This document shows positions 12,587 through 26,392 of a stretch of DNA of 64,000 nucleotides, in pieces. The position numbers and the translations under genes are program-made. The notes under the pieces are model-generated. The model did not search any database. It had not been told where the DNA came from and saw only the letters and a program-made list of their open reading frames with translations. This DNA is from Sinosporangium siamense (GTDB lineage: Bacteria > Actinomycetota > Actinomycetes > Streptosporangiales > Streptosporangiaceae), in assembly GCF_016863435.1 (NCBI RefSeq), contig NZ_BOOW01000028.1, forward strand, positions 159,799 to 223,798, written 5' to 3'. Each line of letters starts with the position of its first letter. Position 1 is the first letter of the stretch.

Positions 12587-12655
12587 GACCTCGCCAGCTA
12601 ACTATTTGATCTTCTGCTCGCCCATACCACCGCGGCTGCCCTACTTTCGGCGGCT

Positions 12656-15600
12656 ATGCCAGTTGAGTTCCTCAGTGATGGCGAGGCGGCCGTGTACGGC
12701 CGGTTCTCGGGTGCTCCCTCCCAGGCGGAGTTGGAGCGGTTCTTCTTCCTTGATGACGTGGACAGGGCGCTGGTCGCCGAACGGCGCGGATCACACCACC
12801 GGCTCGGCTTCGCTCTTCAGGTAACGACGGCTCGGTTCGTCGGCCGGTTCCTCCCCGACCCGCTGGACGTGCCCAGCGAGGTGCTGCATTACCTCGCCGA
12901 CCAGCTCGGGATCGAGGACGTCACGCAGATCGCCCGCTACACCGAGCGGCGCAGCACGCCGTTTGAGCACCAGGAGGTCATCCGCGACGCCTACGCGTTG
13001 AAGGACTTCGCCGAGGCGGAAACGGACTTCGTCGCCTGGGCAGATGCCCGCGCCTGGAACACCGGCGACGGCAAGAAGACGATCTTCTATGACGGGGTGA
13101 CGTGGCTGCGCACCAAGAAGGTCCTGCTCCCAGGCGTGACCACCCTGACCCGGCTGGTAGCCAGGGTGCGCGATGCGGCTACCGACCGGCTCTATGAGAC
13201 CCTGCATGACGTGCTGTCCCCACGTCAGCGGACGATCCTGCAGATGCTGCTGGAAGTGCCGGACGGCAGGCGTGCCTCCGACCTGGAACGCTGGCGCAAA
13301 GGCCCGGCCGTCACCTCGGGCAAGAACCTGGAGAAGGTGCTGGAGCGCGCGGCTGAGATCCTCGGCGTGGGCCTGGGTGCGATGCCGCTGCCGCTGGAGG
13401 TGCCGCACCGGCGGATGGTGGATCTGGCCCGCTACGGGATGCAGGCCACGGCCACGACGTTGCGCCGCCACGGTCCGTCCCGCCAGCTCGCCACGCTGCT
13501 GGCCACGGGGATCTTCTTGGAGGGCAAGGCGGTCGACGACTGCCTGGAGATGCTGGATCTGCTGGTCACCACCGAGCTGCTGGGCAAGGCCGATACCGCC
13601 GCGGGCAAGGAGCGGGCGCGCCAGCATCCCAAGCTGGCCAAGCACTCGGCCACCCTCGCCGCGGCGGTGGAGATGCTGTTGGAGGTCACCGAATACGGCG
13701 AGGAGTTGCGGCTGGATCAGGTGTGGGAGGCGATCGACGCCATCGTGCCGCGGCGGGAGCTGCGCGAGGCGGTCGCCGCGGTGACCGAGATGGTGCCGCC
13801 GCCCGACGGTGACGCCGACGGCGAGATGCGGGCGCTGCTGGCCTCGCGGATCGCCACCGTGTCCGGGTTTCTCAAGACGCTGACCACGGTGATCGACTTC
13901 GGCGCCAACGCCGAGGGCGCGCGGGCGCTGGCGGCGATGAAGCAGTTGCCCCGACTGCTGGACGGCCGCAAGAAGAAGGTCACAGAGGCCGACATCGATC
14001 CCGCGCTGGTGAGCGGTTCCTGGAAGCGGCTGGTGTTCAAGAACCTGCCGAACGGCAGCACCGTGGACAAGAACGCCTACAGCATGTGCGTGCTCACGCA
14101 GTTCCACCGCCACCTCAAGCGCCGCGACGTCTACGCCGAGACCTCGGCCCGCTGGCGAGACCCGCGCGGCCAGCTCCTGGACGGCGCGCGCTGGCAAGCG
14201 GCCAAGGGGCCTGCCCTGGTCGACCTGCAGCTTCCGGAGGATCCCGGCCAGATGCTCGCCGAGCACGCGCTGGTGCTGCACCTGGCGCTCAACGACGTCG
14301 CCGGCCGGGCCGGGCGCGACGGGGTGGACGTCAGCGTGGACGCCGAAGGACGGCTGCATGTGGCCAAGCTGACGGCCCTGCCGGAGCCGCCGTCGCTGAT
14401 CGATTTGCGCAAGCGGGTGCTGGCGATGCTTCCGCGGGTCGACCTGCCGGAGGTGCTGCTGGAGGTGATGGGCCGGGTTCCGGCGTTCGAGGCCGCGTTC
14501 ACCTCGGCCGCCGGCGGGGTGAGCAAGCTGGCCGACTTCCGCGTTTCGGTCGCGGCCTGTTTGACGGCCCAGGCGCTGAACATCGGCTACGCGCCGGTGG
14601 TCAAGGCCGGGACGCCCGTGCTGGAGCGCGGCCGGCTCTCGCATGTGGCGCAGAACTACCTCTCAGCCGAGACCTACACCCTGGCCAACGCCCCGCTCAT
14701 CGACGAGCAGGGACAGCTCGGCTTCGCCCAGGCGCTCGGCGGCGGGCTGGTCGCGGCGATCGATGGGATGCGGTTCGTGGTCCCGGTGCCCTCCATCTAC
14801 ACCCGGCCGAACAAGAAGTACTTCGGCCGCTCGCGCGGGGTCACCTGGCTCAACATGATCAACGACCGTGGTGTGGGGCTCGGCGCGAAGGTGGTCACCG
14901 GCACCGTGCGCGACTCCCTGCACATGATCGACGTGGCGTTCCGGCGTGATGGCGGGCCGCGCCCGGAGGTCCTGGTGACCGACACCGGCTCCTACAGCGA
15001 CGTCGTCTTCGGGCTGGTCCACCTGCTGGGCATGCAGTACCGGCCGGCGCTGGCCGACATTCCCGACCAGAAGGGCTGGCGCATCCAGGACGCCGACTAT
15101 GGCAGCCTGTCCCGCTTCGCGCGCGGGAAGATCGACCTGGACAAGATCAGGCGGCATTGGGGCGACATCCTGCGCGTCGTGGTGTCGATCTACACCGGCG
15201 AGATCCGCGCCTACGACCTGATGCGCATGATCCAGCGCGACGGCAACCCCACCCCGCTGGGCGAGGCGATCGCGCACTACGGCCGCATCTTCAAGACGCT
15301 GCACATCCTCACCTACGCGGTGGAGGAGCCCTACCGGCGCGACATCAAGGGTGTGCGCAATCTGCAGGAGTCCCGGCACGCCCTGGCCGGGAAGATCTTC
15401 CACGGCAAGAAGGGTGAGTTGTATCAGCGCTACCACAAGGGCATGGAAGACCAGCTTGGGGCGCTTGGCCTGGTGCTCAACTGCGTCACGCTGTGGAACA
15501 CCTTCTACATCGACCGGGCCCTCGACCAGCTCAAAGCCGACGACTACCCCCTGGCTGAGGAGAATGTGGCGCGGTTGTCGCCGTTCGTGCGCCAGCATCT

Positions 15601-15706
15601 CAACGTGATCGGCACGTACTCCTTCGCCCAGCCCGACCTCGGACCCGCCGGTGTCCGCCGGCTCCGTAACCCCGATGAACCGGACTGGGAGGACGAGGGC
15701 CTGTAG
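12656..15706 (+). CDS. tnpA: Tn3-family transposase TnpA
   Basis: A 1016-residue DDE transposase of normal full length that binds the terminal repeats and forms cointegrates. The N-terminal DUF4158-like domain (about 1-170, starting MPVEFLSDGEAAVYGRF) recognises the ends; the catalytic domain lies in the last 400 residues. Conserved acidic blocks are IDGMRFVVP, VTDTGSYSDVVFGLVHLLG and MEDQLGALGLVLN, with GRSRGVTWLNM between the first two. The reading frame is intact. It begins about 70 bp inside the left repeat, with no gene between. Confidence 0.95.
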   Translation: MPVEFLSDGEAAVYGRFSGAPSQAELERFFFLDDVDRALVAERRGSHHRLGFALQVTTARFVGRFLPDPLDVPSEVLHYLADQLGIEDVTQIARYTERRSTPFEHQEVIRDAYALKDFAEAETDFVAWADARAWNTGDGKKTIFYDGVTWLRTKKVLLPGVTTLTRLVARVRDAATDRLYETLHDVLSPRQRTILQMLLEVPDGRRASDLERWRKGPAVTSGKNLEKVLERAAEILGVGLGAMPLPLEVPHRRMVDLARYGMQATATTLRRHGPSRQLATLLATGIFLEGKAVDDCLEMLDLLVTTELLGKADTAAGKERARQHPKLAKHSATLAAAVEMLLEVTEYGEELRLDQVWEAIDAIVPRRELREAVAAVTEMVPPPDGDADGEMRALLASRIATVSGFLKTLTTVIDFGANAEGARALAAMKQLPRLLDGRKKKVTEADIDPALVSGSWKRLVFKNLPNGSTVDKNAYSMCVLTQFHRHLKRRDVYAETSARWRDPRGQLLDGARWQAAKGPALVDLQLPEDPGQMLAEHALVLHLALNDVAGRAGRDGVDVSVDAEGRLHVAKLTALPEPPSLIDLRKRVLAMLPRVDLPEVLLEVMGRVPAFEAAFTSAAGGVSKLADFRVSVAACLTAQALNIGYAPVVKAGTPVLERGRLSHVAQNYLSAETYTLANAPLIDEQGQLGFAQALGGGLVAAIDGMRFVVPVPSIYTRPNKKYFGRSRGVTWLNMINDRGVGLGAKVVTGTVRDSLHMIDVAFRRDGGPRPEVLVTDTGSYSDVVFGLVHLLGMQYRPALADIPDQKGWRIQDADYGSLSRFARGKIDLDKIRRHWGDILRVVVSIYTGEIRAYDLMRMIQRDGNPTPLGEAIAHYGRIFKTLHILTYAVEEPYRRDIKGVRNLQESRHALAGKIFHGKKGELYQRYHKGMEDQLGALGLVLNCVTLWNTFYIDRALDQLKADDYPLAEENVARLSPFVRQHLNVIGTYSFAQPDLGPAGVRRLRNPDEPDWEDEGL

Positions 15707-15781
15707 GCATCGGCTCTCTCGCCCGACCGCAGCCCCGACCATGAGCCCCTCCGCCACGAGCGCCGGAGGCAGGGCCGATGG

Positions 15782-16015
15782 TCACTCGGTGGCGTGCCGA
15801 ACTTGGGCGCTGCTCGTAGCCCGGGCGGCGAGAAAGTGCAGGCGGTCGCCGGACGGGGTGACCGGTGCAGCGGAGTAGGCCAGCAAGGTGAGCGGCGTCT
15901 CGGCGGGCAATTTGAAGACCTCGTAGTCGAGCTCGAGGACGCCGACAGCGGGGCGGTGAAAACGTCTGGTGCCGTGACCCGCATGAGCCGATTCGTCACC
16001 TGGCGAAGATCGCAT
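15782..16015 (-). pseudogene. MmyB-like XRE regulator, C-terminal fragment
   Basis: Encodes HGTRRFHRPAVGVLELDYEV then FKLPAETPLTLLAYSAAP and SGDRLHFLAA, the ligand-binding C-terminus of actinobacterial XRE/MmyB-type regulators (usual form RFHHPxVGxLxLxYE). The N-terminal HTH and most of the protein are absent. It overlaps the promoter motif at 16015-16043, which probably belongs to the gene going the other way. Confidence 0.55.
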
Positions 16016-16043
16016 CTCACGATTCCTTCCGCCCCGGCGTCTT
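16015..16043 (+). promoter_or_regulatory. Putative ECF-sigma promoter (site 2) before the 16149 gene
   Basis: TCTCACGA, 15 nt, CGTCTT. Same spacing as the sites before ogt and the sigma gene. The start codon of the downstream gene lies about 105 nt away. Confidence 0.65.
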
Positions 16044-16148
16044 CTCGATGCCGGGGCTCGAACGCCCGGCTCAGCGTGCCCGCGGCCGCCCGCGCCCGGC
16101 GGTCGCGGGCATCCTTATCCCGACGACGGGCGCGTGGAAATTGTGCGA

Positions 16149-16628
16149 ATGAGCAGCCGACGAGACCGGCGTTATAGCCTGATCGACTTCGGCCCTGACT
16201 CGTACGGGGTTCTCCGGCAGCGAGCGGCCGCCGCCGGTTACCGCTTCCCGAATCTCGCGATCCGTGACACGAGGCTCGCCATGGCGGTCGGAGACCTCCT
16301 CCAATCCGCCATGGTCTGCGGCGGAATCGACGTAATGCCGTTCACCATCCGCGACGAGAGCCTCGTCGTGGTGGCCTGCGAAGGCGACGAGCCCGCCGGC
16401 ATTTCGGCTATTGACCCCACCGGAGACATCCCACGCGACGTCGTGACCTGGGTAGACCCCACCCACGAGCCGTGGGTGGAGCAGGTTCTCAAGATCGAAC
16501 TGCTGCGCGAGGCCCGGACGGCGGGCATCGACCGGGTGAGTGTCGTGCGTGGCACGGCGACCGAGGCCGTCTATGAGTCCCTCGGCCTGCATGGCGTCCG
16601 GGAGATCTCTTCCGATGCGCCGCAGTAG
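16149..16628 (+). CDS. Hypothetical protein under an alkylation-regulon-type promoter
   Basis: About 159 residues, beginning MSSRRDRRYSLIDFGPDSYG. The middle part (LVVVACEGDEPAGISAI) and the C-terminus (LLREARTAGIDRVSVVRG, EAVYESLGLHGVREI) faintly resemble GNAT acetyltransferases, in which a late helix ends in a xYESLGF segment, but no clear acetyl-CoA loop (R/QxxGxG/A) is seen. No family is assigned. A GTG 15 nt upstream is an alternative start. The ECF-type promoter at 16015 suggests co-expression with the repair genes. Confidence 0.5.
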   Translation: MSSRRDRRYSLIDFGPDSYGVLRQRAAAAGYRFPNLAIRDTRLAMAVGDLLQSAMVCGGIDVMPFTIRDESLVVVACEGDEPAGISAIDPTGDIPRDVVTWVDPTHEPWVEQVLKIELLREARTAGIDRVSVVRGTATEAVYESLGLHGVREISSDAPQ

Positions 16629-16929
16629 ATCACACGTGAGGTTCCCGGGTTGGGTCATGCCGGAGCGCCCTGCTGCGACTGCTCACGGCTGGTTCACGGC
16701 ACGCCCGCCGCACCCGACCGGCGTGCGCGGTGCCGCGCAGCGGGCGCTCCACGTACCGGGACGGACGGGCACGACAGCTGGGCGCCGTGAATCGCGGTTC
16801 GCCGAGCGCGGCGTGCGGGCCGTCCCCATCTCTACCCCGAGGACATGTCGTGCACGCTCTTGTGTGAACATCCGCGCGGGCTTGCTGCGTCTGGCGTGAG
16901 CGTCGCGTGCCACGTCGAGTTCTGCCGGA

Positions 16930-16958
16930 TCTCACGTGTCGTCTCGACCGAGCGTCTT
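16930..16958 (+). promoter_or_regulatory. Putative ECF-sigma promoter (site 3) before the MGMT pseudogene
   Basis: TCTCACGT, 15 nt, CGTCTT, located 27 nt before the ATG at 16985. It closely resembles the ogt promoter at 18959 and appears intact although the gene behind it is broken. Confidence 0.7.
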
Positions 16959-16984
16959 CGCACCACCATGAGGGAGGGACTCAG

Positions 16985-17235
16985 ATGAACAGTCGACATG
17001 TCATGGCCGACACCGGCTTCGGGTCGATCACCGTGCCCGCCAAGGACGAGGCGATCAAGCGGCTGTCCGTCTGGGACCACATCCGCCGGCCCGAGCAGGA
17101 CACGTTCGGTCCGGAAACGGTCGCCTCTACCGACATGCCCCGAACGACGCGGCCGAGCAGTTGCGGGACCACCTCGCTGGCAAGCACGCGCGAGAGCCGG
17201 TGTGTCCGGGCACCCGCCTCGCCAGGCGGTGACGT
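16985..17235 (+). pseudogene. Degraded O6-methylguanine-DNA methyltransferase N-terminal copy
   Basis: The frame from 16985 (MNSRHVMADTGFGSITVPAK, then DHIRRPEQDTFGPETVAS) aligns with the N-terminus of the intact ogt at 19022 (MNTRHAVIETYLGPITVVAK, HHVRRPSQEMFGPEV). After about 45 codons the match moves to another frame (NDAAEQLRDHLAGKHARE) and stops before the active-site domain. It is a decayed paralogue that retains the regulon-type promoter, a GAGGGAGG ribosome-binding site and a start codon. Confidence 0.75.
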
Positions 17236-17239
17236 CCGA

Positions 17240-17268
17240 TCTCACGATCATGGGATCGCGAGCGTCTG
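17240..17268 (+). promoter_or_regulatory. Putative ECF-sigma promoter (site 4) before the 17317 gene
   Basis: TCTCACGA, 15 nt, CGTCTG. It lies at the decayed end of the MGMT pseudogene and 49 nt before the ATG at 17317. Confidence 0.65.
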
Positions 17269-17316
17269 CCTGAGCGCAGACAAAGAGCAGACCTGCATGC
17301 AGATGGGGCAAATGCG

Positions 17317-17607
17317 ATGAACCAGGAACGAGACCAGCAAGATCCAGAATCGGCGTCGTGGCTTGATGAACACTATTCGTTGTCGGCGGACCGGATGTTT
17401 GCCCTCGACGAAGTGGCGGCCGCAGCACTGATTCCTACGGCTCCCGGCGTCGTGTGGAGGGCGGCTGTCGTCGCTACGTTCGGGACCGACGCCACTGGGA
17501 AGGCCGTCACGTACCTGCAGTATCTCCAGGATGTCGAGGGGCGAGTAGCGGAACGCGACATCATGCGGACCTTGATCCGCATGATGCGTAGCCGCATCGG
17601 AATCTAG
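17317..17607 (+). CDS. Hypothetical small protein under an alkylation-regulon-type promoter
   Basis: A 96-residue acidic-then-basic protein, starting MNQERDQQDPESASWLDEHY, with a central hydrophobic stretch (AAAALIPTAPGVVWRAAVVA) and a basic C-terminus (MRTLIRMMRSRIGI). No family is recognised. The start overlaps a short reading frame (MQMGQMR, 17297-17320) by ATGA, suggesting translational coupling. The regulon-type promoter at 17240 argues that it is expressed. Its role in alkylation stress is inferred from that site and from position only. Confidence 0.45.
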   Translation: MNQERDQQDPESASWLDEHYSLSADRMFALDEVAAAALIPTAPGVVWRAAVVATFGTDATGKAVTYLQYLQDVEGRVAERDIMRTLIRMMRSRIGI

Positions 17608-17660
17608 GTGTGATGCCCGTTCAAAGATCGCCTGCCTTATGGATCTTCGGCGGCCGTGGA

Positions 17661-17900
17661 TCACGCGGTCGGAATGCTGTCCAGCTGCTGGATACCGCGA
17701 GGCCGTCGTCGAGGTGGAATTTCTCGACGATCTGGCCGTCCATGACCTGGAGAATGGGTCATGTCCGTGAAGCGCATGGTCTTGCCGGACGCTGCCGGGG
17801 CGGAGGCGATGGGCAGGGTCGGTGAAGTCGGAATGGCCGGTGTGCGTATCGCCGCTCTCCCACCGGCCCTCGACGAAATCGACCTCGGCGGTCAGGCCGG
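17661..17900 (-). pseudogene. SnoaL-like protein, degraded copy
   Basis: Successive frames encode VDFVEGRWESGDTHTGHSDF, PIASAPAASGKTMRFTDMT and a final DSIPTA plus stop. They align with the intact protein at 24572 (VGQWEGGGTHTG, PIGSVPAASGKTLRFTGKT, LGIIPTA). Several frameshifts and loss of the N-terminal half make it non-functional. Confidence 0.65.
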
Positions 17901-17939
17901 TGGTGTGAGAGAGGTAAGGCGACAAGAGGTATTGCCCCG

Positions 17940-18100
17940 TGGGGTTGGGGACGCGGCTGGCCCTTCAGCGCGGTGTGCCCGCGATGGTGGCTGCAGGGTG
18001 TTAGCCCCATACCGAAGGCGTCGCGTCGTTCGTGCTCGGTGCGATTGGGCCGGGCGTATGCCCGTTCGTCGAACAGGGTTTGGTTGAAGCGTCCGTTTTC
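17940..18100 (-). pseudogene. IS481-family transposase, C-terminal fragment
   Basis: Encodes GRFNQTLFDERAYARPNRTE then HHRGHTALKGQP, the end of the integrase core of IS481-type transposases (usual pattern NQTLLDEWAY...NHHRxHTALxGxPP). Only about 55 residues remain. Its insertion may explain the loss of the adjacent SnoaL copy. Confidence 0.6.
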
Positions 18101-18545
18101 CCGTTGGTTGGGGGCTCGGCGGGTGGTGAAGCGGAGGTTGACCAGCTCCAGCTCGTCGATGATCGGCCTCAACGTGGCCAGGGCAGCGTGGTCCCGCCCG
18201 CCTCGGCCCGGTCCCGATGCCGCCGGGACCGGTGATCCCCAGCCGGGCCGAGGCGGGCGGGGTTCTGTCCGACGATCAGTCCGCCGAGGTCGGGGAGGAC
18301 CTGCTCCATGGTGCTCCCGCGTCCTGGCCGGCGACCGACTGCGCGTCTTGGACGCCGGACACGCCACACTGGCCCGGGCATCGCCGGGCGGTCAGAAGAC
18401 GCGCCATGCCCGCGGTCTATGCCGGGTGCCTGCATGAGACGTGGGAAGGGGCTGCGGATGTCGATGAGAATGGTGTGGCTCATGCGGCCAGAGGCCGGAA
18501 GCGGCCGAGGCGGCGTCGACGCGCTTACGGGCCATCTTCGGTGCC
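18101..18545. other. Stretch without a recognisable gene
   Basis: A minus-strand frame (18169-18483) contains MEQVLPDLGGLIVGQNPARL, which looks protein-like but has no recognised family and breaks soon after. It is probably debris between the IS481 remnant and the small gene at 18546. Confidence 0.4.
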
Positions 18546-18797
18546 TCAGGCCTCGCGGGGAGGTGGATGATCTGTCTTGGCCGCAGTCGCGTCGTCGCCC
18601 GGGTCCGCGCCGCGATAGGGGATGTCGGTGCCGTAGTAGGTGATGCCTTCGGCCGGCATGAGGAACCAGTGGCGCTCGACGCAGCGCAGCTTGAGAAGCA
18701 GAACCTCATCGACAGGGCTCTCCCACTCGATGGAAGCCATATTGCCGCATTCCGGGCAGGTGAGAAGTGTGAGCCCGCTGTCGGACGGCCACGTCAT
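18546..18797 (-). CDS. Small zinc-ribbon-like protein under a regulon-type promoter
   Basis: An 83-residue protein beginning MTWPSDSGLTLLTCPECGNM, with one CPEC knuckle and a later LRCVERHWFLMPAEGITYYG. Similar small actinobacterial proteins pair CPxC with a CVxRHWFLMP segment, suggesting a one-metal fold; their function is unknown. The ATG at 18797 follows GAGGGG by 9 nt. A minus-strand ECF-type promoter lies 43 nt upstream, divergent from the ogt promoter, so it probably belongs to the alkylation regulon. Confidence 0.65.
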   Translation of the reverse strand: MTWPSDSGLTLLTCPECGNMASIEWESPVDEVLLLKLRCVERHWFLMPAEGITYYGTDIPYRGADPGDDATAAKTDHPPPREA

Positions 18798-18839
18798 GAT
18801 GTGCACCCCTCAGACGAGCTCGGGCGGCTGGTCGATGAG

Positions 18840-18868
18840 CAAACGCATCCCGGCGGCCCGATGTGAGA
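18840..18868 (-). promoter_or_regulatory. Putative ECF-sigma promoter (site 5), minus strand
   Basis: On the minus strand TCTCACAT (18868-18861), 15 nt, CGTTTG (18845-18840). It directs transcription toward the zinc-ribbon gene starting at 18797. Confidence 0.65.
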
Positions 18869-18958
18869 TCCGTGCCCGGCTGGGTCAGATCGTGCGGGTC
18901 AGGTGCGGGAGCCGCAGCGGGAACGGCCGCACCGACCACGGCCCGGTGGCGGAGCGGA

Positions 18959-18987
18959 TCTCACGTTCTGCGGACGACGTCCGTTTA
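18959..18987 (+). promoter_or_regulatory. Putative ECF-sigma promoter (site 6) before ogt
   Basis: TCTCACGT, 15 nt, CGTTTA, ending 34 nt before the ogt start codon. Confidence 0.75.
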
Positions 18988-19021
18988 CCGGGTGAGAGAT
19001 GTCAGGAGAGGGGAGACGCAG

Positions 19022-19534
19022 ATGAATACCCGACATGCCGTGATCGAGACATACCTGGGCCCGATCACGGTCGTCGCCAAGGCCGCGGCGATCAGCGGGC
19101 TGTACTACGAGCATCATGTCCGCCGCCCCTCGCAGGAGATGTTCGGCCCCGAGGTCGGTGACGGGACGGATCCGCTGCTGAACGAGGCTGTGGGCCAGCT
19201 GTGCGACTACCTGGCGGGGCGGCGCAGGGACTTCGATCTCCCGTTGGAGGCCGAGGGTGACGCGTTCCAGCGGGCCGTGTGGGACCTCGTGAAGAGCATC
19301 CAGTGCGGGGACACCACCACCTACGGCCGAATCGCGGAGCAGGTCGGAGACCGTGCTCTCGCGCAGAAGGTCGGGCAGGCCGTGGGTGCGAACCCGCTGT
19401 GCATCTTCGTCCCGTGCCACCGCGTCGTCGGCTCCACCGGCGCTCTGACCGGGTACGCCGGCGGGCTCAACCGCAAGCAGGTGCTGCTGGCACTCGAGGA
19501 GCCGTCCGCGGGCGAGACCGGGAGGTTGTTTTGA
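19022..19534 (+). CDS. ogt: Methylated-DNA--protein-cysteine methyltransferase
   Basis: A 170-residue suicide repair protein that transfers the methyl group from O6-methylguanine to its active-site cysteine in FVPCHRVVG (about residue 127). The DNA-binding wing is GALTGYAGGLNRKQVLLALE, and FQRAVWDLVKSIQCGDTTTY precedes the helix-turn-helix. The N-terminal RNase-H-like domain is present, so it is full length. The ATG follows GGAGAGGGGAGA. Promoter site 6 lies upstream, and the sigma operon starts 43 bp downstream under its own copy of the motif. A broken paralogue is at 16985. Confidence 0.95.
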   Translation: MNTRHAVIETYLGPITVVAKAAAISGLYYEHHVRRPSQEMFGPEVGDGTDPLLNEAVGQLCDYLAGRRRDFDLPLEAEGDAFQRAVWDLVKSIQCGDTTTYGRIAEQVGDRALAQKVGQAVGANPLCIFVPCHRVVGSTGALTGYAGGLNRKQVLLALEEPSAGETGRLF

Positions 19535-19541
19535 CCGGGAA

Positions 19542-19570
19542 TCTCACGTTTGCCGCCGCATATACGTCTT
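19542..19570 (+). promoter_or_regulatory. Putative ECF-sigma promoter (site 7), autoregulatory
   Basis: TCTCACGT, 15 nt, CGTCTT. The predicted start of transcription is at or within a few nt of the ATG at 19578, so the sigma mRNA may be nearly leaderless. It implies that the sigma factor activates its own operon. Confidence 0.75.
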
Positions 19571-19577
19571 CCATGGG

Positions 19578-20075
19578 ATGGGCATGAAACAACCGTTCGA
19601 GAGCGTGGTGGCACAGCATGGCGCCACCGTGCTGCGCGTCTGCCGGGTCATTCTCGGCCCGCATGACGCCGAAGACGCGTGGTCGGAGACCTTCCTGGCC
19701 GCCATGCGCGCCTATCCCGATCTGCCGGAGATGGCGAATGTGGAGGCGTGGCTGGTGACGATCGCGCATCGCAAGGCGATCGACGTGCTGCGGGCCGCGA
19801 AGCGGAACCCCCTGCCCGTCGACGAGGTACCGCAAGCGCCGGGGCAGGACGACGCGGTGGATGTCGAGGCCGTCGGCCTGTGGTCGGTGGTGAAGGAACT
19901 GCCCAGCAAGCAGCGCCAGGCCATCGCCTACCGATACGTGGCGGGGCTGGCCTACGCCGAGATCGCGGAGATCCTCGGCGGCACCGCCGACGCGGCCAGG
20001 AGAGCCGCCGCCGACGGGCTGAAGAATCTCAGGAGACACTATCCGGGCGCCATCTCGAAAGGAGCATCGTCGTGA
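19578..20075 (+). CDS. ECF-type RNA polymerase sigma factor, predicted alkylation-response regulator
   Basis: A 165-residue ECF sigma factor. Region 2 covers about 9-70 (ATVLRVCRVILGPHDAEDAW, then SETFLAAMRAYPDL) and region 4 about 105-155 (LPSKQRQAIAYRYVAGLAYA, EIAEILGGTADAARRAA). No anti-sigma gene is adjacent; instead the next gene, a methyltransferase, overlaps it by GTGA. Eight copies of a TCTCAC-N15-CGT-type motif in the window, one before this gene, are the predicted target promoters. The start may be ATG 19578 (near-leaderless) or ATG 19584. Confidence 0.88.
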   Translation: MGMKQPFESVVAQHGATVLRVCRVILGPHDAEDAWSETFLAAMRAYPDLPEMANVEAWLVTIAHRKAIDVLRAAKRNPLPVDEVPQAPGQDDAVDVEAVGLWSVVKELPSKQRQAIAYRYVAGLAYAEIAEILGGTADAARRAAADGLKNLRRHYPGAISKGASS

Positions 20076-20689
20076 GCGACGTGCGCAACGATGACGACCT
20101 GGCCGTCCTGCTGTCGACTGCCGTGGACGCCGATACCCTCAGCCGTCTCCACCGCCGTCTGGAGCAGGCCGCGGAGCGGGCGGACCTGATCGATGTCGCG
20201 TACACGACCATCGACTCACCCGTCGGCAGGCTGCTGCTCGCCGCCACCCCGAAGGGATTGGTCCGGGTCGCCTTCGACGGCGAGGACCACGACCGGGTTC
20301 TGGAAACCCTCAGCCAGAAGATCAGCCCGCGGATCCTGCGTGCGCCTCAGCGGCTGGAGGAGACGGCTCGCGAGATCGACGAATACTTCGCCCGCCGCCG
20401 TCAGGTCTTCGACGTGCCACTGGATTTGTCCCTGTCGCACGGGTTCCGGCGGCTGGTGCAGACACACCTGCCCGAGATCGCCTACGGGCAGACCCGCAGC
20501 TACCGGGACATGGCCGAGCTCGTCGGCAACCCCAGGGCCGTCCGCGCCGTGGGCACCGCCTGCGCGACCAACCCGCTGCCGATCGTCGTCCCCTGCCACC
20601 GCGTGCTGCGCACCGACGGCACCCTCGGCGGCTACATCGGCGGACTCGACGCCAAGACCACGCTGCTGGACCTGGAGGCCGCCGCATGA
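20072..20689 (+). CDS. AdaB/Ogt-type methyltransferase coupled to the ECF sigma gene
   Basis: A 205-residue protein with the MGMT active site IVVPCHRVLR (Cys near residue 175) and the DNA-binding GTLGGYIGGLDAKTTLLDLE. Before the methyltransferase domain is an N-terminal extension of about 45 residues (DLAVLLSTAVDADTLSRLHR, then RLEQAAERADLIDVAY) that the Ogt at 19022 lacks. Start GTG 20072 overlaps the sigma stop, so translation is coupled. The helical extension could contact the sigma factor, making this protein a candidate alkylation sensor; that is inference. Otherwise it is a second O6-alkylguanine repair enzyme. Confidence 0.9.
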   Translation: MSDVRNDDDLAVLLSTAVDADTLSRLHRRLEQAAERADLIDVAYTTIDSPVGRLLLAATPKGLVRVAFDGEDHDRVLETLSQKISPRILRAPQRLEETAREIDEYFARRRQVFDVPLDLSLSHGFRRLVQTHLPEIAYGQTRSYRDMAELVGNPRAVRAVGTACATNPLPIVVPCHRVLRTDGTLGGYIGGLDAKTTLLDLEAAA

Positions 20690-21423
20690 GCACGACAGCA
20701 ACGGGGAAGGCGACGGACCGCTGGCACCGGCGGGTCGCCTCCGGCGACTGGGAGGCGATCACCGTGGAGGTCAACGAGTACGGCGGCGCGCTGCTGCCGC
20801 AGCTGCTGACCCCCCAGGAGAGCGCGGAGATCAGGGAACTGTACGAGCAGGACCACCTTTTCCGCAGCACCGTCGACATGGGCCGCCACCGCTTCGGCGC
20901 GGGCCAGTACCGCTACTTCAACACGCCCTACCCCGAGCCTGTCGAGCAGCTCAAGCAGGCGCTCTACCCCCGGCTGCTGCCCATCGCCCGCGACTGGTGG
21001 GCCAAGCTCGGCCGGCCCGCGCCGTGGCCCGACTCCCTGCAGGAGTGGCTGCAGATGTGCCACGACGCCGGCCAGACGAAGTCCACCGCGATCCTGCTGC
21101 GCTACGCCGAGAAGGACTGGAACGCCCTGCACCGTGACCTGTACGGCGACCTGGTGTTCCCGCTCCAGGTCGTGATCAACCTCAACGAGCCCGGCGTGGA
21201 TCACACGGGCGGCGAGTTCCTGCTCCTGGAGCAGCGCCCGCGCGCCCAGTCCAGGGGCACCTCCACCCTGCTGCCGCACGGTCACGGCTACCTGTTCACC
21301 ACCCGCGACCGGCCCGTTCGCTCGGCCCGCGGATGGTCGGCCGCACCGGTACGGCACGGCGTGTCCGCCATCCGGTCCGGCGAACGCCACACCCTGGCCC
21401 TCGTCTTCCACGACGCCGCATGA
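20686..21423 (+). CDS. 2OG-Fe(II) oxygenase
   Basis: A 245-residue double-stranded beta-helix dioxygenase. The HxD metal motif is in NALHRDLYGDLVFPLQ, the distal His probably in PVRHGVSAIRSGERHTLAL, where the following Arg would bind 2-oxoglutarate. It overlaps the previous gene by ATGA and the next by ATGA. It differs from AlkB and resembles prolyl-hydroxylase-like 2OG enzymes. A role in oxidative dealkylation or protein modification during alkylation stress is inferred from its operon. Confidence 0.85.
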   Translation: MSTTATGKATDRWHRRVASGDWEAITVEVNEYGGALLPQLLTPQESAEIRELYEQDHLFRSTVDMGRHRFGAGQYRYFNTPYPEPVEQLKQALYPRLLPIARDWWAKLGRPAPWPDSLQEWLQMCHDAGQTKSTAILLRYAEKDWNALHRDLYGDLVFPLQVVINLNEPGVDHTGGEFLLLEQRPRAQSRGTSTLLPHGHGYLFTTRDRPVRSARGWSAAPVRHGVSAIRSGERHTLALVFHDAA

Positions 21424-21710
21424 GTGACGCGACCAGGACGTACACCCTGCTGGGAGCGGACGGCCTCCCCTACCAGTCAGCGGTCAAGGGACTGTGGGGC
21501 GGCCACCGCTGCTCGAAGATCTACGGCCGGCTCGACTGCCCCGCCGCCCTGCGCGCCATCGCCGACGGCGGCTACGTGCGGCACCGGGTCTTCTTCGCCG
21601 ACGAGGCCACCGCGATCGCGGCCGGGTTCCGTCCCTGCGGGGCCTGCTGCCGCGACCGCTTCCAGCAATGGAAGAGCTCCCAGCAGGAGGACCGGCCATC
21701 GACTTCCTGA
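21420..21710 (+). CDS. Ada-type metal-binding domain protein, stand-alone
   Basis: A 96-residue protein made only of the Ada N-terminal zinc-binding fold: YTLLGADGLPYQSAVKGLWG, IYGRLDCPAALRAIADGGYV, HRVFFADEATAIAAGFRPCG and ACC. In Ada, four cysteines bind zinc and one accepts methyl groups from phosphotriesters to switch on transcription. Here Cys residues lie in HRCSK, RLDCP and CGACC. No HTH is fused, so it may repair methylphosphotriesters or signal methylation to the operon's sigma factor (inference). Confidence 0.8.
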   Translation: MSDATRTYTLLGADGLPYQSAVKGLWGGHRCSKIYGRLDCPAALRAIADGGYVRHRVFFADEATAIAAGFRPCGACCRDRFQQWKSSQQEDRPSTS

Positions 21711-22222
21711 CCAGCCCCCTGTTGAAGAGGCCTGCCGGCCACGACGCCGACGTCATGATCACGGACGCCGAGACCGAGGCCCTTATCCGGCTGGCCCGCG
21801 ACCGCCGCGCCCAAACCATCGCGATCGGCTCCGGCCGTACCCCGCGCGCGCTGGAGAGCGCCCGGCTGATCGAAGCGGTCTGGGAGCGTACGGGAGGCAC
21901 CATCCTCACCATGATCACCTGGCCCGAGATCGGCGCTTCCTGGCTGCGCCACGCCTCCCGGTTCGCCGACGCCGACCCTGACCTGTGGGTGATGACGGGC
22001 GCCGCGACCGGCTGGGCGCAGATGACCCGCCGCCTGCTGTGGTCGACACCGTGGCGCCCCGAGCGCACCCTGGCGACCGCCGCGATAGGCGATCCGCGCA
22101 CCCTCGCGCTCGTCGGCCTGATCAACCTGAACGGCTTGGCCGGCACGACCGCCCACGGCACGACCTGGCGCGTCGAGGACGACACCTTCCACTATCCCGC
22201 CCGCACGCAGGAGGGACCGTGA
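21669..22222 (+). CDS. Conserved hypothetical protein in the alkylation-repair operon
   Basis: About 184 residues with an alpha/beta pattern: IAIGSGRTPRALESARLIEA, TILTMITWPEIGASWLRHAS, DPDLWVMTGAATGWAQMTRR and LVGLINLNGLAGTTAHGTTW. No family is recognised. The start is uncertain: ATG 21669 overlaps the previous gene by 42 nt, ATG 21754 has no ribosome-binding site, and the best GGAGG (21686-21690) is followed by ATC at 21698. It is coupled to alkB by GTGA. Repair-linked function is inferred from context only. Confidence 0.65.
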
Positions 22223-22890
22223 CAGCACTGTTCACCGCGCAGTTCCCCGGCCGCGACGCCAGGGAGATCATGCCCGGCGCCGTCCATGTCCCGGACTGGC
22301 TGACCCTGCGGCAGCAGCGATGGATCACCGGCCAGTTCCACACGTGGGCGCAGGGCCCGGTGCCCCTGCGTGCCGCGATGGTCCGAGGCCACCGGATGTC
22401 CGTGCGCACCGTGTGTCTGGGCTGGCACTGGCAGCCCTACCGGTACACACGAGCGGCCACCGACGTCAACGGGGCCCGCGTGCTGCCGTTCCCCGATTGG
22501 ATGATCCGTCTGGGACGCGATGCCCTCCAGGCCACCGGCCACGCCCCGGACGTCGTTCGCGCCTACGATCCGGACACCGCTCTGGTGAACTTCTACGACA
22601 CCGACGCCCGCCTGGGGATGCACCAGGACAAGGACGAGAACTCCCGAGCCCCGGTCGTCTCGCTGTCCATCGGCGACACCTGCACCTTCCGCTTCGGCAA
22701 CACCGAAAGCCGCGGCCGGCCGTACACCGACCTGATGCTGGCCTCCGGCGACCTGTTCGTCTTCGGCGGGCCCGCCCGCCTGGCCTACCACGGTGTCACC
22801 AAGGTGCATCCAGATACCGCCCCCGCGGGGTGCGGTATCAGCAACGGCCGGATCAACATCACGATGCGCATGACAGGGCTGGACGGGTGA
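22219..22890 (+). CDS. alkB: Alpha-ketoglutarate-dependent dioxygenase AlkB
   Basis: A 223-residue AlkB that oxidatively demethylates N1-methyladenine and N3-methylcytosine. The metal HxD is in LVNFYDTDARLGMHQDKDE, the nucleotide-lid region upstream includes LGWHWQPYRYTR, the distal His is in RLAYHGVTKVHP and the 2OG-binding Arg in NGRINITMRMTG. It is full length. Start GTG 22219 overlaps the previous stop. It lies in the operon driven by the autoregulated sigma promoter at 19542. Confidence 0.95.
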   Translation: MTALFTAQFPGRDAREIMPGAVHVPDWLTLRQQRWITGQFHTWAQGPVPLRAAMVRGHRMSVRTVCLGWHWQPYRYTRAATDVNGARVLPFPDWMIRLGRDALQATGHAPDVVRAYDPDTALVNFYDTDARLGMHQDKDENSRAPVVSLSIGDTCTFRFGNTESRGRPYTDLMLASGDLFVFGGPARLAYHGVTKVHPDTAPAGCGISNGRINITMRMTGLDG

Positions 22891-22894
22891 CCAC

Positions 22895-23518
22895 ATGACG
22901 CAACAAGCCGGCCCCACGCTCTCCGACCCTGGGGTGGTCGTCGGAGAGGACGGACTCGCCCGGCCCGCCTGGGCCGCCGTCGACCCCCTGCTGCGCGACT
23001 ACTACGACTGCGAGTGGGGCATGCCGGTCACCGACGAGCGCGGCGTCTACGAACGCGTCAGCCTCGAAGGGTTCCAGGCGGGCTTGTCCTGGGCGACGAT
23101 CCTGCGCAAACGGCCCGCGTTCCGGGTGGCGTTCGACGACTTCGACCCGAACGTGATCGCCACCTACACCGACGCGGATGTCGAACGGCTGATGGCCGAC
23201 GCCGGTATCGTGCGCAACCGGCGCAAGATCCTGGCCACCATCGCCAACGCCCGCGCCACCATCAGGCTGCGCGAGAACGAGGGGCTGCCCGGCCTGGTGT
23301 GGTCCTTCCAGCCCGAGAGCACCCCCCGCCCCCGGACCTTCGCGGAGATCCCCACGAAGTCCGCGGAGTCCATCGCGCTGTCGAAGGAACTGCGCCGGCG
23401 CGGCTTCGCCTTCGTCGGCCCGACCACCATGTACGCCCTCATGGAGGCGATCGGTATCGTCGACACCCACCTGCTGGACTCGCACCGGCGCGGCAGCTCG
23501 GGCATCTGGCCCTCGTGA
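22895..23518 (+). CDS. tag: DNA-3-methyladenine glycosylase I
   Basis: A 207-residue HhH-superfamily glycosylase that excises 3-methyladenine. Hallmarks are YYDCEWGMPVTDERGVYERV, LEGFQAGLSWATILRKRPAF, AGIVRNRRKI and the C-terminal GFAFVGPTTMYALMEAIGIV with DTHLLDSHRR. The Cys of DCEWG and the C-terminal His residues fit the Tag zinc site. It starts 4 bp after alkB and is the last intact gene of the operon. A broken AlkA gene follows. Confidence 0.93.
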   Translation: MTQQAGPTLSDPGVVVGEDGLARPAWAAVDPLLRDYYDCEWGMPVTDERGVYERVSLEGFQAGLSWATILRKRPAFRVAFDDFDPNVIATYTDADVERLMADAGIVRNRRKILATIANARATIRLRENEGLPGLVWSFQPESTPRPRTFAEIPTKSAESIALSKELRRRGFAFVGPTTMYALMEAIGIVDTHLLDSHRRGSSGIWPS

Positions 23519-23534
23519 CCCTCCTCCTCCGCCG

Positions 23535-24190
23535 GGCCCCAAAGGGAACATCTGCTGCGAGGCCGCGTTGCGGATGCTGGCCGCCCAAGCAATCCCGCGA
23601 GCCGAACACGTCGACGTCCCGGGCCGCAGCCACACCCGGCTGCTGCACCACGCCGGCGCACCCGTACGGGAGAGGTGACCTTCGCCGAGGACGTGGTCGC
23701 CGCCGAATCCCGTGACCAGACGCCTCACCCCGACGGCATGGCGGCCGCGATCCGCCGGTGGCCGGACCTCGACTCCGACATCGCCCGGATCGAGGGCGAA
23801 CTCGCCGCCGACCCGCTGATCCGCCCGCTGGTCGAACGCCGGCCGGCGTCCGGCTCCTCGGCTACCCCCGACGAATGCGAAGCGGTCATCGCGACGGTCG
23901 CCGGCCAGCAAGCCTCCCTCGCCGCGGCCCGCACCTGTAAGGCCAGACGTGTCGCCGCCGACGGAAGGACGGCAGCCGGGCTGAGGGCCCTGCCCGCACC
24001 GTGAGAACTCGCGGCGGTCCCCGACACCGAACTCCAGGCGACCGTCGGGCTCACCGGTGCACGCACCCGCACCCTCCGCGCCGTCGCCGAGCGGTGGGCG
24101 GACGGGTTCACCCTCGCGCACCTCACCACCGACCAGGCCCGCGGAGCCCCACTCTCGCGCTCCCCGGCATCGACATTCCTGCGTAATGCC
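23535..24190 (+). pseudogene. 3-methyladenine DNA glycosylase II (AlkA), degraded
   Basis: Pieces in different frames match AlkA in order: ALRMLAAQAIPRAEHVDVPG and RSHTRLLHHAGAPV, then MAAAIRRWPDLDSDIARIEG, ELAADPLIRPLVERRP and VAGQQASLAAART, then after an internal stop ELAAVPDTELQATVGLTGAR and TLRAVAERWADGF. The HhH and catalytic Asp region is missing. The island thus once included AlkA as well as Tag, AlkB and MGMT. Confidence 0.7.
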
Positions 24191-24290
24191 CCGCGCGCAG
24201 GGCACCGACCCATGATCGTCCAAGCGGCACCACGACACAGACCAACGAGGAACCGCTCGGCCTGAACCCCGTCGAGACAGCCGCCCGGCC

Positions 24291-24316
24291 GAAGCCCGGC
24301 CCCGCGTGCGGGCTTC
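24291..24316 (+). terminator. Hairpin downstream of the repair operon
   Basis: Arms GAAGCCCG and CGGGCTTC with a 10-nt loop, followed by a C/T-rich run. A plausible factor-independent terminator between the alkA remnant and the next regulon gene. The rest of 24191-24486 shows no gene. Confidence 0.4.
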
Positions 24317-24486
24317 TCCCCTCCCTTCTCTGCCGGACGGCCCGGCGGTCCTGCTGCGGGCGCCTCCCGACCGCGACAGGAACCAGTCCCGGCATGCCCC
24401 CAGCAGTAGTGCGCCTTGAACCCGAAGAACAAGCGCACGCCCGCACGGCCGGCCTTCGGTTCGATCCCGGAAGGCTCTATCTCCCA

Positions 24487-24515
24487 TCTCACATTTCGAA
24501 CCCGGCGAACGTCTT
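24487..24515 (+). promoter_or_regulatory. Putative ECF-sigma promoter (site 8) before the SnoaL-like gene
   Basis: TCTCACAT, 15 nt, CGTCTT, ending 56 nt before the ATG at 24572. Confidence 0.75.
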
Positions 24516-24571
24516 CGGAACGTCATCACGCCGCAGGCGAACCGCTGACAACAACAGAAAGAGACAGACCC

Positions 24572-25021
24572 ATGTCGCTTGAAGAGAACAAGGCCATCGT
24601 CGGCCGCTGGTTCACCGAGTTCTGGGGCAAGGACTTCAACCCCGGCATCATCGACGAGCTCGCCGCACCGGACATCCGCTTCGAGTACTCACTGCACAAG
24701 CCGATGAGCGGGCGCGAGGAGGTTCGCGCCTTTGCGACCAACTTCCGCACCGCGTTCCCGGACCTCAACTTCTGGGGCACCGCCGACCTCATCGCCGAGG
24801 GCGACTACGTCGTCGGACAGTGGGAGGGCGGCGGCACGCACACCGGACCGATCGTCTTCGACGACCTGCCCATCGGCTCCGTCCCGGCAGCGTCGGGCAA
24901 GACGCTCCGTTTCACCGGTAAGACGGTCCTCAAGGTCCAGAACGGCCTCATCGTCGAAGAACTCGGACTCGACGACGGCGTGACGGTCCTCCAGCAGCTC
25001 GGCATCATTCCCACCGCCTGA
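24572..25021 (+). CDS. SnoaL-like ester cyclase family protein in the alkylation island
   Basis: A 149-residue SnoaL/NTF2 protein: ENKAIVGRWFTEFWGKDFNP, MSGREEVRAFATNFRTAFPD, DLIAEGDYVVGQWEGGGTHT and C-terminal LGLDDGVTVLQQLGIIPTA. It is preceded by AGAAAGAGA and by ECF-type promoter site 8. A degraded copy is at 17661, and a family member under the same motif is at 657. The catalytic role is unknown. Consistent co-regulation suggests that it handles a toxic electrophile or alkylated metabolite (inference). Confidence 0.85.
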   Translation: MSLEENKAIVGRWFTEFWGKDFNPGIIDELAAPDIRFEYSLHKPMSGREEVRAFATNFRTAFPDLNFWGTADLIAEGDYVVGQWEGGGTHTGPIVFDDLPIGSVPAASGKTLRFTGKTVLKVQNGLIVEELGLDDGVTVLQQLGIIPTA

Positions 25022-25112
25022 GCTGAACAGCCACGGTGAGCCACCTCGGCGTCGAGGCCACCGGCGACGTAGTAGCCGACCCCCTTGATCGCCCTGCTGG
25101 TCGCTGAAATAG

Positions 25113-25139
25113 GGTCGGCGGCTCATTGAGCCGCCGACC
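25113..25139. terminator. Perfect hairpin between the SnoaL gene and the recombinase module
   Basis: Arms GGTCGGCGGCTCA and TGAGCCGCCGACC almost abut; the effective stem is about 11 bp with a 5-nt loop. No T-run follows, but its position fits a terminator for the SnoaL transcript or an insulator for the recombinase module. Confidence 0.45.
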
Positions 25140-25185
25140 TTACCGAGACCAGGACGTGGCTACCGCCCGAAGGCCTCCGGCTGAA

Positions 25186-25214
25186 GTACGTGATAACAGC
25201 CTATTATCACGTAC
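25186..25214. promoter_or_regulatory. Dif-like 11-7-11 palindrome, candidate TnpI resolution site or operator
   Basis: Perfect arms GTACGTGATAA and TTATCACGTAC flank a 7-nt spacer (CAGCCTA), ending directly before the ATG at 25215. Eleven-bp arms around a 6-8-nt spacer is the geometry of tyrosine-recombinase core sites. Its place immediately before the recombinase operon also fits an autoregulatory operator. A second copy is at 8690-8718. Confidence 0.65.
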
Positions 25215-25325
25215 ATGAGCGACCACGGCACCGCGGCGACCAGGCGAACGCCTTGCCGGGACGCTGCGCGACTCCGGCACGTTATCCAGTACATCGCCGA
25301 CGGCGCAACGCGGCGGCCGGCATGA
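25215..25325 (+). CDS. Small conserved protein coupled to the TnpI-like recombinase
   Basis: A 36-residue ORF, MSDHGTAATRRTPCRDAARL then RHVIQYIADGATRRPA. It begins right after the palindrome and overlaps the recombinase start by ATGA. It is homologous to the longer frame at 8486-8690, which also follows this palindrome. It may be a shortened DNA-binding accessory protein or only a coupling leader. Conservation of the pair supports a real module. The function is unknown. Confidence 0.5.
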   Translation: MSDHGTAATRRTPCRDAARLRHVIQYIADGATRRPA

Positions 25326-26263
25326 GCGCCGCGCCGAAGGTGACCGCCCTGCGCGGCGGGAACGTCTCGCTCGCCGCGGCCGCCGACGCCTTCCTGGCCA
25401 CCCCGCGCGCCGCCAACGCCAACACCCACCGCGCCTACGCCTCGGCCATCGACCGCGTCATCGTCCTGCTCGTCCGAGATCGGACCCTCGCCGACGTCGC
25501 CGACGCCGAGATCGGCGCCGCGCTCGCCGAGCTGTGGGGCCGATGCGCGCCGGCGACCTGGAACCGCAACCGCGCCGCCATCGCCTCCTGGCTGACCTGG
25601 TGCCAGACCAGGAAACACTGGGCCGCCCCGTCGGTCCCGGCCGAGGCCGAACGCCGCAAGGAGAACGCCGACGAGACCCGCGCGGTCGCCAAGACCACCG
25701 TCCACCGGCTACTGTCACGCCGCGACATCCCCCTGCGCGAGAAGACGCTGTGGCGGATGCTCTACGAAACGGCGGCCAGAGCGGCTGAGATCCTGGCGCT
25801 GAACGTCGAGGACCTCGACCTTGAGCATCGCCGCGCCCCGGTTCGGTCCAAGGGCGGCTCGATCGAGTGGGTGTACTGGGACAGCGGCACCGCCCACCTG
25901 CTGCCCCGTCTGCTCCGGCTCCCGGACGGCAGCGCGCGCACGCGCGGCCCGCTGTTCCTGTCCGAACGCCGCCCCGTCCCCGCCCGCCGCCCGGCGGCTG
26001 CCGACATCTGCCCGCACACGGGCCGCGCCCGCCTGGGCTACGACCGCGCCCGCGTCCTTCTGGAGAAGTACGCCGGGCTCGATCTGCACCAGCTGCGCCA
26101 CAGCGCCGCCACCCACCTCGGCGAGGCCGAGGTCCCGCTGCAGCTCATTATGGGCAAGACCCGGCACAAGAACCCCCGCACCGCCATGCGCTACGTCAAA
26201 CCCGGCGCCGAGGCCATCGCCAAGGTCACCGAAGTTCTGGCGCCCCGCCGTCGTACGCACTGA
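25322..26263 (+). CDS. Tyrosine recombinase, TnpI/XerD-like
   Basis: A 313-residue tyrosine recombinase. A SAM-like N-terminal core-binding domain (about 15-105, THRAYASAIDRVIVLLVRDR) precedes the catalytic domain, with Arg in LYETAARAAEILALNVEDLD, HQLRHSAATHLGEAEVPLQL (HxLRH) and IMGKTRHKNPRTAMRYVKPG (His and Tyr nucleophile). Its place beside the right end of a Tn3-family element makes it the likely cointegrate resolvase, as TnpI is in Tn4430. Start ATG 25322 is coupled to the small ORF. Confidence 0.88.
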   Translation: MSAAPKVTALRGGNVSLAAAADAFLATPRAANANTHRAYASAIDRVIVLLVRDRTLADVADAEIGAALAELWGRCAPATWNRNRAAIASWLTWCQTRKHWAAPSVPAEAERRKENADETRAVAKTTVHRLLSRRDIPLREKTLWRMLYETAARAAEILALNVEDLDLEHRRAPVRSKGGSIEWVYWDSGTAHLLPRLLRLPDGSARTRGPLFLSERRPVPARRPAAADICPHTGRARLGYDRARVLLEKYAGLDLHQLRHSAATHLGEAEVPLQLIMGKTRHKNPRTAMRYVKPGAEAIAKVTEVLAPRRRTH

Positions 26264-26350
26264 TCAACTCTTGCACTCAGCCTTCCCGAAGGCATGGTCG
26301 CTCTTCGTGGTGCCCGACACTCCTACATGCGAAAACACGATCGCGAGGGA

Positions 26351-26375
26351 CATCCGAACGGAAAGTCACGCTAAG
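26351..26375 (+). repeat. Internal vestigial Tn3-type repeat near the right end
   Basis: CATCCGAACGGAAAGTCACG then CTAAG, facing the functional right repeat (26393-26430) across 17 bp. It differs at one position from 2007-2031. The two facing repeats could form a short hairpin. Probably the remnant of an older element end captured inside the transposon. Confidence 0.6.
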
Positions 26376-26392
26376 TCGTCCGCTGGCGCTCC

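Follow-up and report, generated by a model that had tools for sequence, protein, structure and literature searches.

Which promoters does an extracytoplasmic function (ECF) sigma factor read when its gene travels on a transposon among genes for the repair of alkylated DNA, and what keeps such a sigma factor in check? The question is raised by a 64,000-nucleotide stretch of the Sinosporangium siamense genome (contig NZ_BOOW01000028.1), here called the window, in which a Tn3-family transposon carries a sigma gene between the genes of two alkyltransferases, OGT1 and OGT2 (Table 1). A sequence-only reading had proposed that eight copies of the bipartite motif YCTCACRW-N15-CGTY form the regulon of this sigma factor, its own gene included. 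Our analysis indicates that seven of these sites are very probably promoters of this sigma group. It further leads to the evenly balanced proposition that OGT2 is a suicide-enzyme anti-sigma factor, in which the cysteine that repairs methylated guanine would also be the switch that frees the ECF sigma factor.

That the motif exists as a genuine signal is nearly certain. The window contains eight exact matches, on the plus strand at 573, 16015, 16930, 17240, 18959, 19542 and 24487 and on the minus strand at 18868-18842, as compared to 0.19 expected (mean of 100 dinucleotide shuffles of the window; largest count 3). These are the positions reported earlier, except that the minus-strand copy had been given an end at 18840. 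The claim of a fixed spacing was borne out as well: N15 gives eight matches, N11 gives one, and all other lengths from 9 to 21 give none. With two mismatches allowed, the window holds 56 matches vs 61 by chance, and since this is the chance level the signal lies in the sharp motif and not in a composition bias. Across the whole genome of 8.86 Mb (G000) the same pattern is found 22 times, comprising the cluster of seven, the copy at 573 and 14 matches beyond the window, vs about 26 by chance (scaled by hand from 0.19 per 64 kb); it is therefore the clustering that carries the signal.

The core of the motif stands as first described, but its extent does not. An extended consensus, derived from 81 distinct sites in relatives of the sigma locus with the window left out, has an A before the motif in 70 sites, T at +28 in 80 and C at +30 in all 81. 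This sharpened motif, A-YCTCACRW-N15-CGTY-TNC, fits all seven copies that lie, as had been claimed, within one transposon, between the terminal inverted repeats (TIRs) at 12549 and 26430, and these are its only matches in G000. A position weight matrix (PWM) built from 75 sites before sigma or OGT1 genes (79 sites in the oxygenase test below) scored the transposon copies at 21.9-32.1 and the 573 copy at 12.1, and no other position of the window reached 12. The matrix sites all stem from the relative loci, so that the scores of those loci are circular and those of the window are not. The seven sites point toward start codons, with gaps, counted from the end of TNC, of 104, 25, 47, 33, 6 and 55 nt for the plus-strand sites and 32 nt for the minus-strand one. 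The orientation thus agrees with the sequence-only reading, whereas the uniform range of 25-105 nt given there does not hold: counted from the end of CGTY, the gap is 9 nt for the sigma gene and 107 nt for the open reading frame (ORF) at 16149.

The copy at 573-599 was set aside. It lies outside the transposon, precedes a SnoaL gene and is without the flanking A and T.C common to the other seven. It belongs to a family of look-alike sites, CCTCACAT...TCGTC, also found at loci L005, L014, L020 and L021 of G000. The genes behind look-alike sites are a sigma gene of ECF41-like type that matches SnoaL_2 and genes for a carboxymuconolactone decarboxylase and a pyridine nucleotide-disulphide oxidoreductase; behind the site of L021 is another sigma factor of G000, with a fused SnoaL-type domain, and the L014 copy has no ORF of at least 90 amino acids within 300 nt. 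ECF41 promoters are described as TGTCACA, 16 ± 1 nt and CGTC, with the same kinds of neighbour genes (PMC3426412). Because of its misfit to the sharpened motif, the neighbours of its look-alikes and this promoter likeness, we consider the 573 copy a likely ECF41-type site, and the second motif family looks like a chromosomal ECF41-type regulon. The missing flanks, the low score and the ECF41-like look-alikes rule out the 573 copy as a member, which reduces the proposed eight-copy regulon to seven. A host-wide regulon was also rejected, as G000 has no sharpened match outside the transposon; the looser pattern CTCAC-N17-CGTYTNC adds three matches, and its reversed control gives seven.

The relatives of the sigma gene show the same arrangement. 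We compared the best 80 of 386 places encoding a sigma relative (55-89% identity, up to 6 kb on each side, 0.93 Mb), nearly all of them under Actinobacteria names. The unsharpened pattern, about at chance level in the whole of G000, is strongly enriched in these loci, with 93 exact matches vs 2.7 expected. Again N15 is preferred (93 matches, at most five for any other length). Ninety-one matches are on the sigma strand, and both minus-strand matches precede a minus-strand OGT1 gene. The sites lie before OGT1 (40 sites, in 40 of the 48 loci with OGT1), sigma (39 sites, in 39 of the 80 loci), SnoaL (3), oxygenase, AlkB and OGT2 (1 each) or no query gene (8). A site before sigma or OGT1 is exact in 66 of the 80 loci and reaches the relaxed score in 75. 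CGTC and the start codon of sigma are most commonly 8-9 nt apart, which suggests leaderless sigma transcripts. For less frequent members, L024, L031 and L039 have sites 55-59 nt ahead of SnoaL, and L024 has one 120 nt ahead of a relative of the 16149 ORF. The loci encode matches to OGT2 (80), OGT1 (48), oxygenase (44), AlkB (28), the Ada-type domain (28), Tag (19) and SnoaL (6), and the transposase and recombinase are found in none of the 80 within the up to 6 kb on each side.

The sharpened motif also co-occurs with the sigma gene across genomes. Among 393 genomes of the class besides G000, some of which may share species with the 80 loci, 45 were counted as sigma-bearing (sigma relative at E <= 1e-30). 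Of these 45 genomes 28 have a sharpened match, compared to 8 of the other 348 (Fisher 4e-24, a p-value that is indicative since the genomes are related). The reversed control pattern occurs in 0 of 45 and 9 of 348 genomes, so the eight matches in sigma-less genomes look like background; G128 and G007 were counted among the latter, yet carry a 40-43% identical sigma beside OGT2. Several sites are far from the sigma gene, for example at 405838 in G188, where sigma is at 1330334, and at 3683787 in G049, where sigma is at 4766374. In these two genomes and in G274, where the oxygenase match contains an internal stop, the site ends 5 nt before an oxygenase start codon. In all, 27 upstream regions of oxygenase genes were read, from 9 of the 19 sigma-bearing genomes that have the gene (in 7 it is located on a different contig or at a great distance from sigma, in 2 it is divergent; the other 10, with the gene near sigma, were left out) and from 18 of the 19 sigma-less ones that have it (best match per genome, with the partial gene of G292 and second copies in three genomes omitted). 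A site was present at 3 of the 7 unlinked genes in sigma-bearing genomes vs 0 of 18 in sigma-less ones (one-sided probability 35/2300 = 0.015, calculated by hand). Other genes behind sigma-distant sharpened sites encode a short-chain dehydrogenase (G058), SnoaL (G383) and EamA transporters (G295, G009), and some sites in sigma-bearing genomes precede nothing recognisable (e.g. two of G354). Together, the sites before sigma and ogt genes in relatives, the co-occurrence with sigma and the oxygenase sites in trans give strong comparative support to the earlier claim of an autoregulated sigma promoter.

The sigma factor itself is a minimal protein. PF04542 and PF08281 match over 165 amino acids, covering regions 2 and 4 only, with no long C-terminal extension; low confidence in the structure model is limited to the linker and the last residues. 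It has no other close copy in the genome, the next best match being 35% identical. The ECF122 group is a named group with 6-O-methylguanine methyltransferase neighbours and a mechanism listed as unknown, its exemplar being WP_057211282.1 from Cellulomonas sp. Root930, according to a 2022 review that follows the ECF classification of 2021 (PMC8999054). Locus L098 comes from that organism (matched by strain name) and encodes a 61% identical sigma with OGT2 adjoining; a relaxed site lies 8 nt ahead of the start codon of sigma. On these grounds the transposon sigma is very likely an ECF122 member, and the methyltransferase neighbour of the group corresponds to the OGT2 gene behind sigma in the window and in all 80 loci.

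Similar to ECF122 proteins, the transposon sigma is a minimal sigma2-sigma4 protein next to a methyltransferase and without a known anti-sigma factor. In the transposon genes scanned with Pfam there was no known anti-sigma domain. The sole invariable partner of sigma is OGT2, which follows it in 80 of 80 loci and accompanies it in each of the 46 sigma-bearing genomes; in G113 it sits at the end of another contig. In 74 of 79 loci the OGT2 gene begins before the sigma gene has ended, with an overlap of 4 nt in 70 loci and of 8 nt in the other four (L087 was dropped as it has no start codon). In L082 and L095 the two genes are 80 and 61 nt apart, with a site directly before OGT2. The acceptor motif PCHR is kept in all 80 loci, and Cys175 is invariant among 36 aligned sequences (the alignments used 35 OGT2 and 32 sigma sequences of the 80 relatives). 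OGT2 is an alkyltransferase by family and by fold, the latter matching Ada C-terminal and Ogt structures. Solved natural alkyltransferases offer nothing comparable to its residues 1-40, as their matches begin at residue 41 or beyond; among the solved structures, two engineered fusion chains match from residues 15 and 24. The model places helices at 5-14 and 20-36, with a mean predicted local distance difference test score (pLDDT) of 91.3 overall and 54-87 per block of ten in the first 40 residues, and Leu26 and Leu30 in the second helix are invariant. The extension (query match from residue 22 or earlier) is present in 45 of 46 sigma-linked genes vs 3 of 7 sigma-less OGT2-like genes (p 0.0006; G128 and G007 excluded), a contrast which is partly circular for weak matches as the score used for calling OGT2 profits from the extension. 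Six of the seven (not G047) were read by eye, and four of these are without the helix motif. The extension probably serves the sigma factor. A natural sigma-OGT2 fusion was not found, and searches by sequence and fold returned alkyltransferases and ECF sigma factors separately, with no solved pair of the two. The invariant pairing, the gene overlap, the N-terminal extension and the acceptor cysteine together suggest, at even or marginally better likelihood, that OGT2 is a methyl-sensing anti-sigma factor.

In the circuit that we propose, the sigma factor would read the seven transposon sites and switch on its own gene and the repair row, giving positive feedback; with the start codon 6 nt after the site, the sigma transcript would be leaderless. 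Unmethylated OGT2 would bind sigma via its N-terminal helix, and methylation of Cys175 from damaged DNA would release it, these two being the least certain steps. Cysteine methylation is irreversible in the alkyltransferase family. The response would then be proportionate to the damage and cease once newly made OGT2 and OGT1 have built up. We regard the joint proposal, that the seven sites are read by the ECF122-type sigma and that OGT2 holds sigma inactive until methylated, as slightly favoured.

Several observations weigh against this proposal. A sharpened match is missing from 17 of the 45 sigma-bearing genomes, 14 of the 80 loci are without an exact site ahead of sigma or OGT1, and the ORFs behind two of the transposon sites, those at 17317 and 18806, lack a counterpart in relatives. 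In sigma-bearing genomes 4 of the 7 unlinked and both divergent oxygenase genes are without a site, and the three site-bearing unlinked genes (G188, G049, G274) all come from one genus. The circularity in the extension contrast also counts here, as does the presence, in at least six genomes, of an OGT2-like gene beside which no sigma gene is found; OGT2 can thus exist as a plain repair protein. The last point, together with the catalytic motif, kept as in a working repair enzyme, and the Ada-type methyl-accepting domain encoded in the row, would suit a simpler arrangement in which the sites are promoters of this sigma, OGT2 is merely a target, and sigma is controlled through its own promoter, through turnover or through a different sensor, for example the Ada-type zinc protein (21420-21710). 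We consider this rather unlikely, as the Ada-type domain is present in only 28 of 80 loci vs OGT2 in all 80, plain repair is already supplied by OGT1, and some other reason would have to be found for the conserved extension and the start-stop overlap. Methylated Ada of Escherichia coli acts as an activator, and by analogy methylated OGT2 might bind sigma or the polymerase and switch it on. Pairing, overlap and extension fit such a co-activator equally well, and the co-activator and anti-sigma readings are inseparable from sequence alone; since no DNA-binding activator domain was found in OGT2 besides the alkyltransferase fold, we judge the co-activator improbable.

The remaining alternatives concern the motif itself. 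It could be read by another sigma factor, or be a repressor operator, its linkage to this sigma gene being indirect; the likeness to ECF41 promoters (PMC3426412) and the similar sites ahead of an ECF41-like gene in this genome would agree with that. However, the sharpened motif excludes the ECF41-like sites, co-occurs with this sigma gene, and is asymmetric and facing start codons, which makes a different reader very improbable. The one result in favour of chance or a compositional artefact is the chance-level count of the unsharpened pattern in the whole genome. It is contradicted by the shuffles, the spacer control, the enrichment in relatives and the reversed-pattern control, and the likelihood of an artefact is negligible; chance and composition were accordingly ruled out.

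The sigma group, ECF122, is already known; the predicted regulon and input are new, and the sigma gene is here carried on a transposon. The promoter consensus, predicted regulon and input, and transposon carriage set the present case apart from the group as covered in the available part of the ECF review, where they are absent (PMC8999054). No description of an ECF122 promoter, regulon or mechanism was found in the open-access literature searched, a scope that does not include the original 2021 classification. For this orphan group there is now a circuit that can be put to the test, comprising a promoter consensus, the regulon predicted from it and a candidate sensor. Compared to ECF41, the -35/-10 layout is similar and the sigma factor reads its own promoter in ECF41 (PMC3426412) as predicted here, whereas the transposon sigma has no fused SnoaL domain and its motif is CTCACRW, N15, CGTYTNC.

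In the Ada adaptive response, alkylation-repair genes are controlled together with a methyl-accepting Ada activator. If the model holds, the transposon likewise combines alkylation-repair genes with a methyl-accepting candidate sensor, although with an ECF sigma factor instead of the Ada activator; the 96-amino-acid transposon protein differs from Ada-type regulators in having PF02805 only, with no joined AraC-type DNA-binding domain. The proposed circuit suggests a way in which many Actinobacteria could respond to alkylation while lacking an activator of the Ada type. RsrA is a redox-sensing zinc anti-sigma factor (PMC4960319), and OGT2 would resemble RsrA-like factors in being a cytoplasmic anti-sigma factor that senses chemistry via a cysteine, unlike them being an alkyltransferase by family and fold with a putative anti-sigma role. 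If OGT2 indeed acts in this way, covalent DNA repair would be directly coupled to transcription initiation, and damage would be read molecule by molecule via a sigma factor and its anti-sigma factor, which would be a novel type of alkylation response for Actinobacteria. The complete circuit, its seven promoters included, would then reside on a transposon that arrives in a new host with a transcription specificity of its own.

Table 1. Features of the transposon and its cargo (window coordinates; promoters and functions as predicted)
Feature	Position	Strand	Remarks
Tn3-family transposon, 13,882 bp	12549..26430		TIRs 12549-12584 and 26395-26430
Tn3 transposase	12656..15706	+	PF01526, E 7e-114
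Predicted sigma promoter before ORF at 16149	16014..16044	+	PWM 28.6
ORF, 159 aa	16149..16628	+	no Pfam match; relatives in 3/80 loci
Predicted sigma promoter before decayed ogt copy	16929..16959	+	PWM 25.1
Decayed OGT1 copy, end approximate	16985..17320	+	50% identity to OGT1 over first 50 residues
Predicted sigma promoter before ORF at 17317	17239..17269	+	PWM 26.5
ORF, 96 aa	17317..17607	+	sub-threshold Pfam match only; no relative in 80 loci
Predicted sigma promoter before ORF at 18806	18839..18869	-	PWM 21.9, weakest of seven
ORF, 86 aa	18546..18806	-	no Pfam match; no relative in 80 loci
Predicted sigma promoter before OGT1	18958..18988	+	PWM 30.2
OGT1, O6-alkylguanine-DNA alkyltransferase without N-terminal extension	19022..19534	+	PF01035, E 2e-30
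Predicted sigma promoter before sigma gene (autoregulation)	19541..19571	+	PWM 32.1
ECF sigma factor, ECF122 type (very likely)	19578..20075	+	PF04542, PF08281
OGT2, alkyltransferase with N-terminal extension, predicted methyl-sensing anti-sigma factor	20072..20689	+	PF01035, E 2e-29
Oxygenase-NA family protein	20686..21423	+	PF09859, E 2e-77
Stand-alone Ada-type zinc domain, 96 aa	21420..21710	+	PF02805, E 4e-6
Protein with uncertain start	21755..22222	+	sub-threshold Pfam match only; related gene in 18/80 loci
AlkB-like 2OG-Fe(II) oxygenase	22219..22890	+	PF13532, E 2e-48
Tag-like 3-methyladenine DNA glycosylase	22895..23518	+	PF03352, E 5e-64
Predicted sigma promoter before SnoaL gene	24486..24516	+	PWM 30.8
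SnoaL-like protein	24572..25021	+	PF07366, E 6e-24
Tyrosine recombinase of transposon	25190..26263	+	PF00589

The element that carries these genes is a Tn3-family transposon by its Tn3 transposase, its terminal inverted repeats (36 nt, 92% complementary) and a perfect 5-bp target duplication, GACAA, at 12544-12548 and 26431-26435. It also shares the site-specific recombinase with this family and differs in its cargo, an alkylation-repair gene row with its own sigma factor, for which it carries the genome's only sharpened matches to the predicted promoter. The genes from sigma through OGT2, oxygenase, Ada-type zinc domain, the 21755 ORF and AlkB to Tag are joined by short overlaps or gaps, an operon-like arrangement. 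The protein encoded at 21755-22222, kept in the repair row in the loci that have it, is a candidate new alkylation-response protein. A plasmid source for the transposon was rejected, as 50 plasmid records match partly and none covers 80% of it.

An inverted SnoaL remnant is located at about 17661-17905 on the minus strand, and together with the decayed OGT1 copy it gives the left part of the cargo the look of an old duplication. The promoter site ahead of the ogt remnant has stayed intact. At 157303-157319 of the contig (G000:C28), about 2.5 kb left of the window, the first 17 nt of the terminal repeat occur for a third time, perhaps as the end of a related or nested element.

In the relatives, OGT2 comes directly after OGT1 at locus L191 (G081), leaving no space for a sigma gene, and the site ahead of OGT1 is weak, whereas G273, of the same genus, has kept sigma; the L191 arrangement looks like a sigma loss. 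Small membrane proteins are encoded behind strong sites at L033:8170 and L046:5605 (scores 21.0 and 33.6), one of them with a PQ-loop match below the cut-off, and constitute a possible further regulon member. Finally, a near-perfect, operator-like palindrome, TCTCACATAATTAGCATTATGTGAGAT, which appeared in the two-mismatch list, is present at 2391-2418 of the window.

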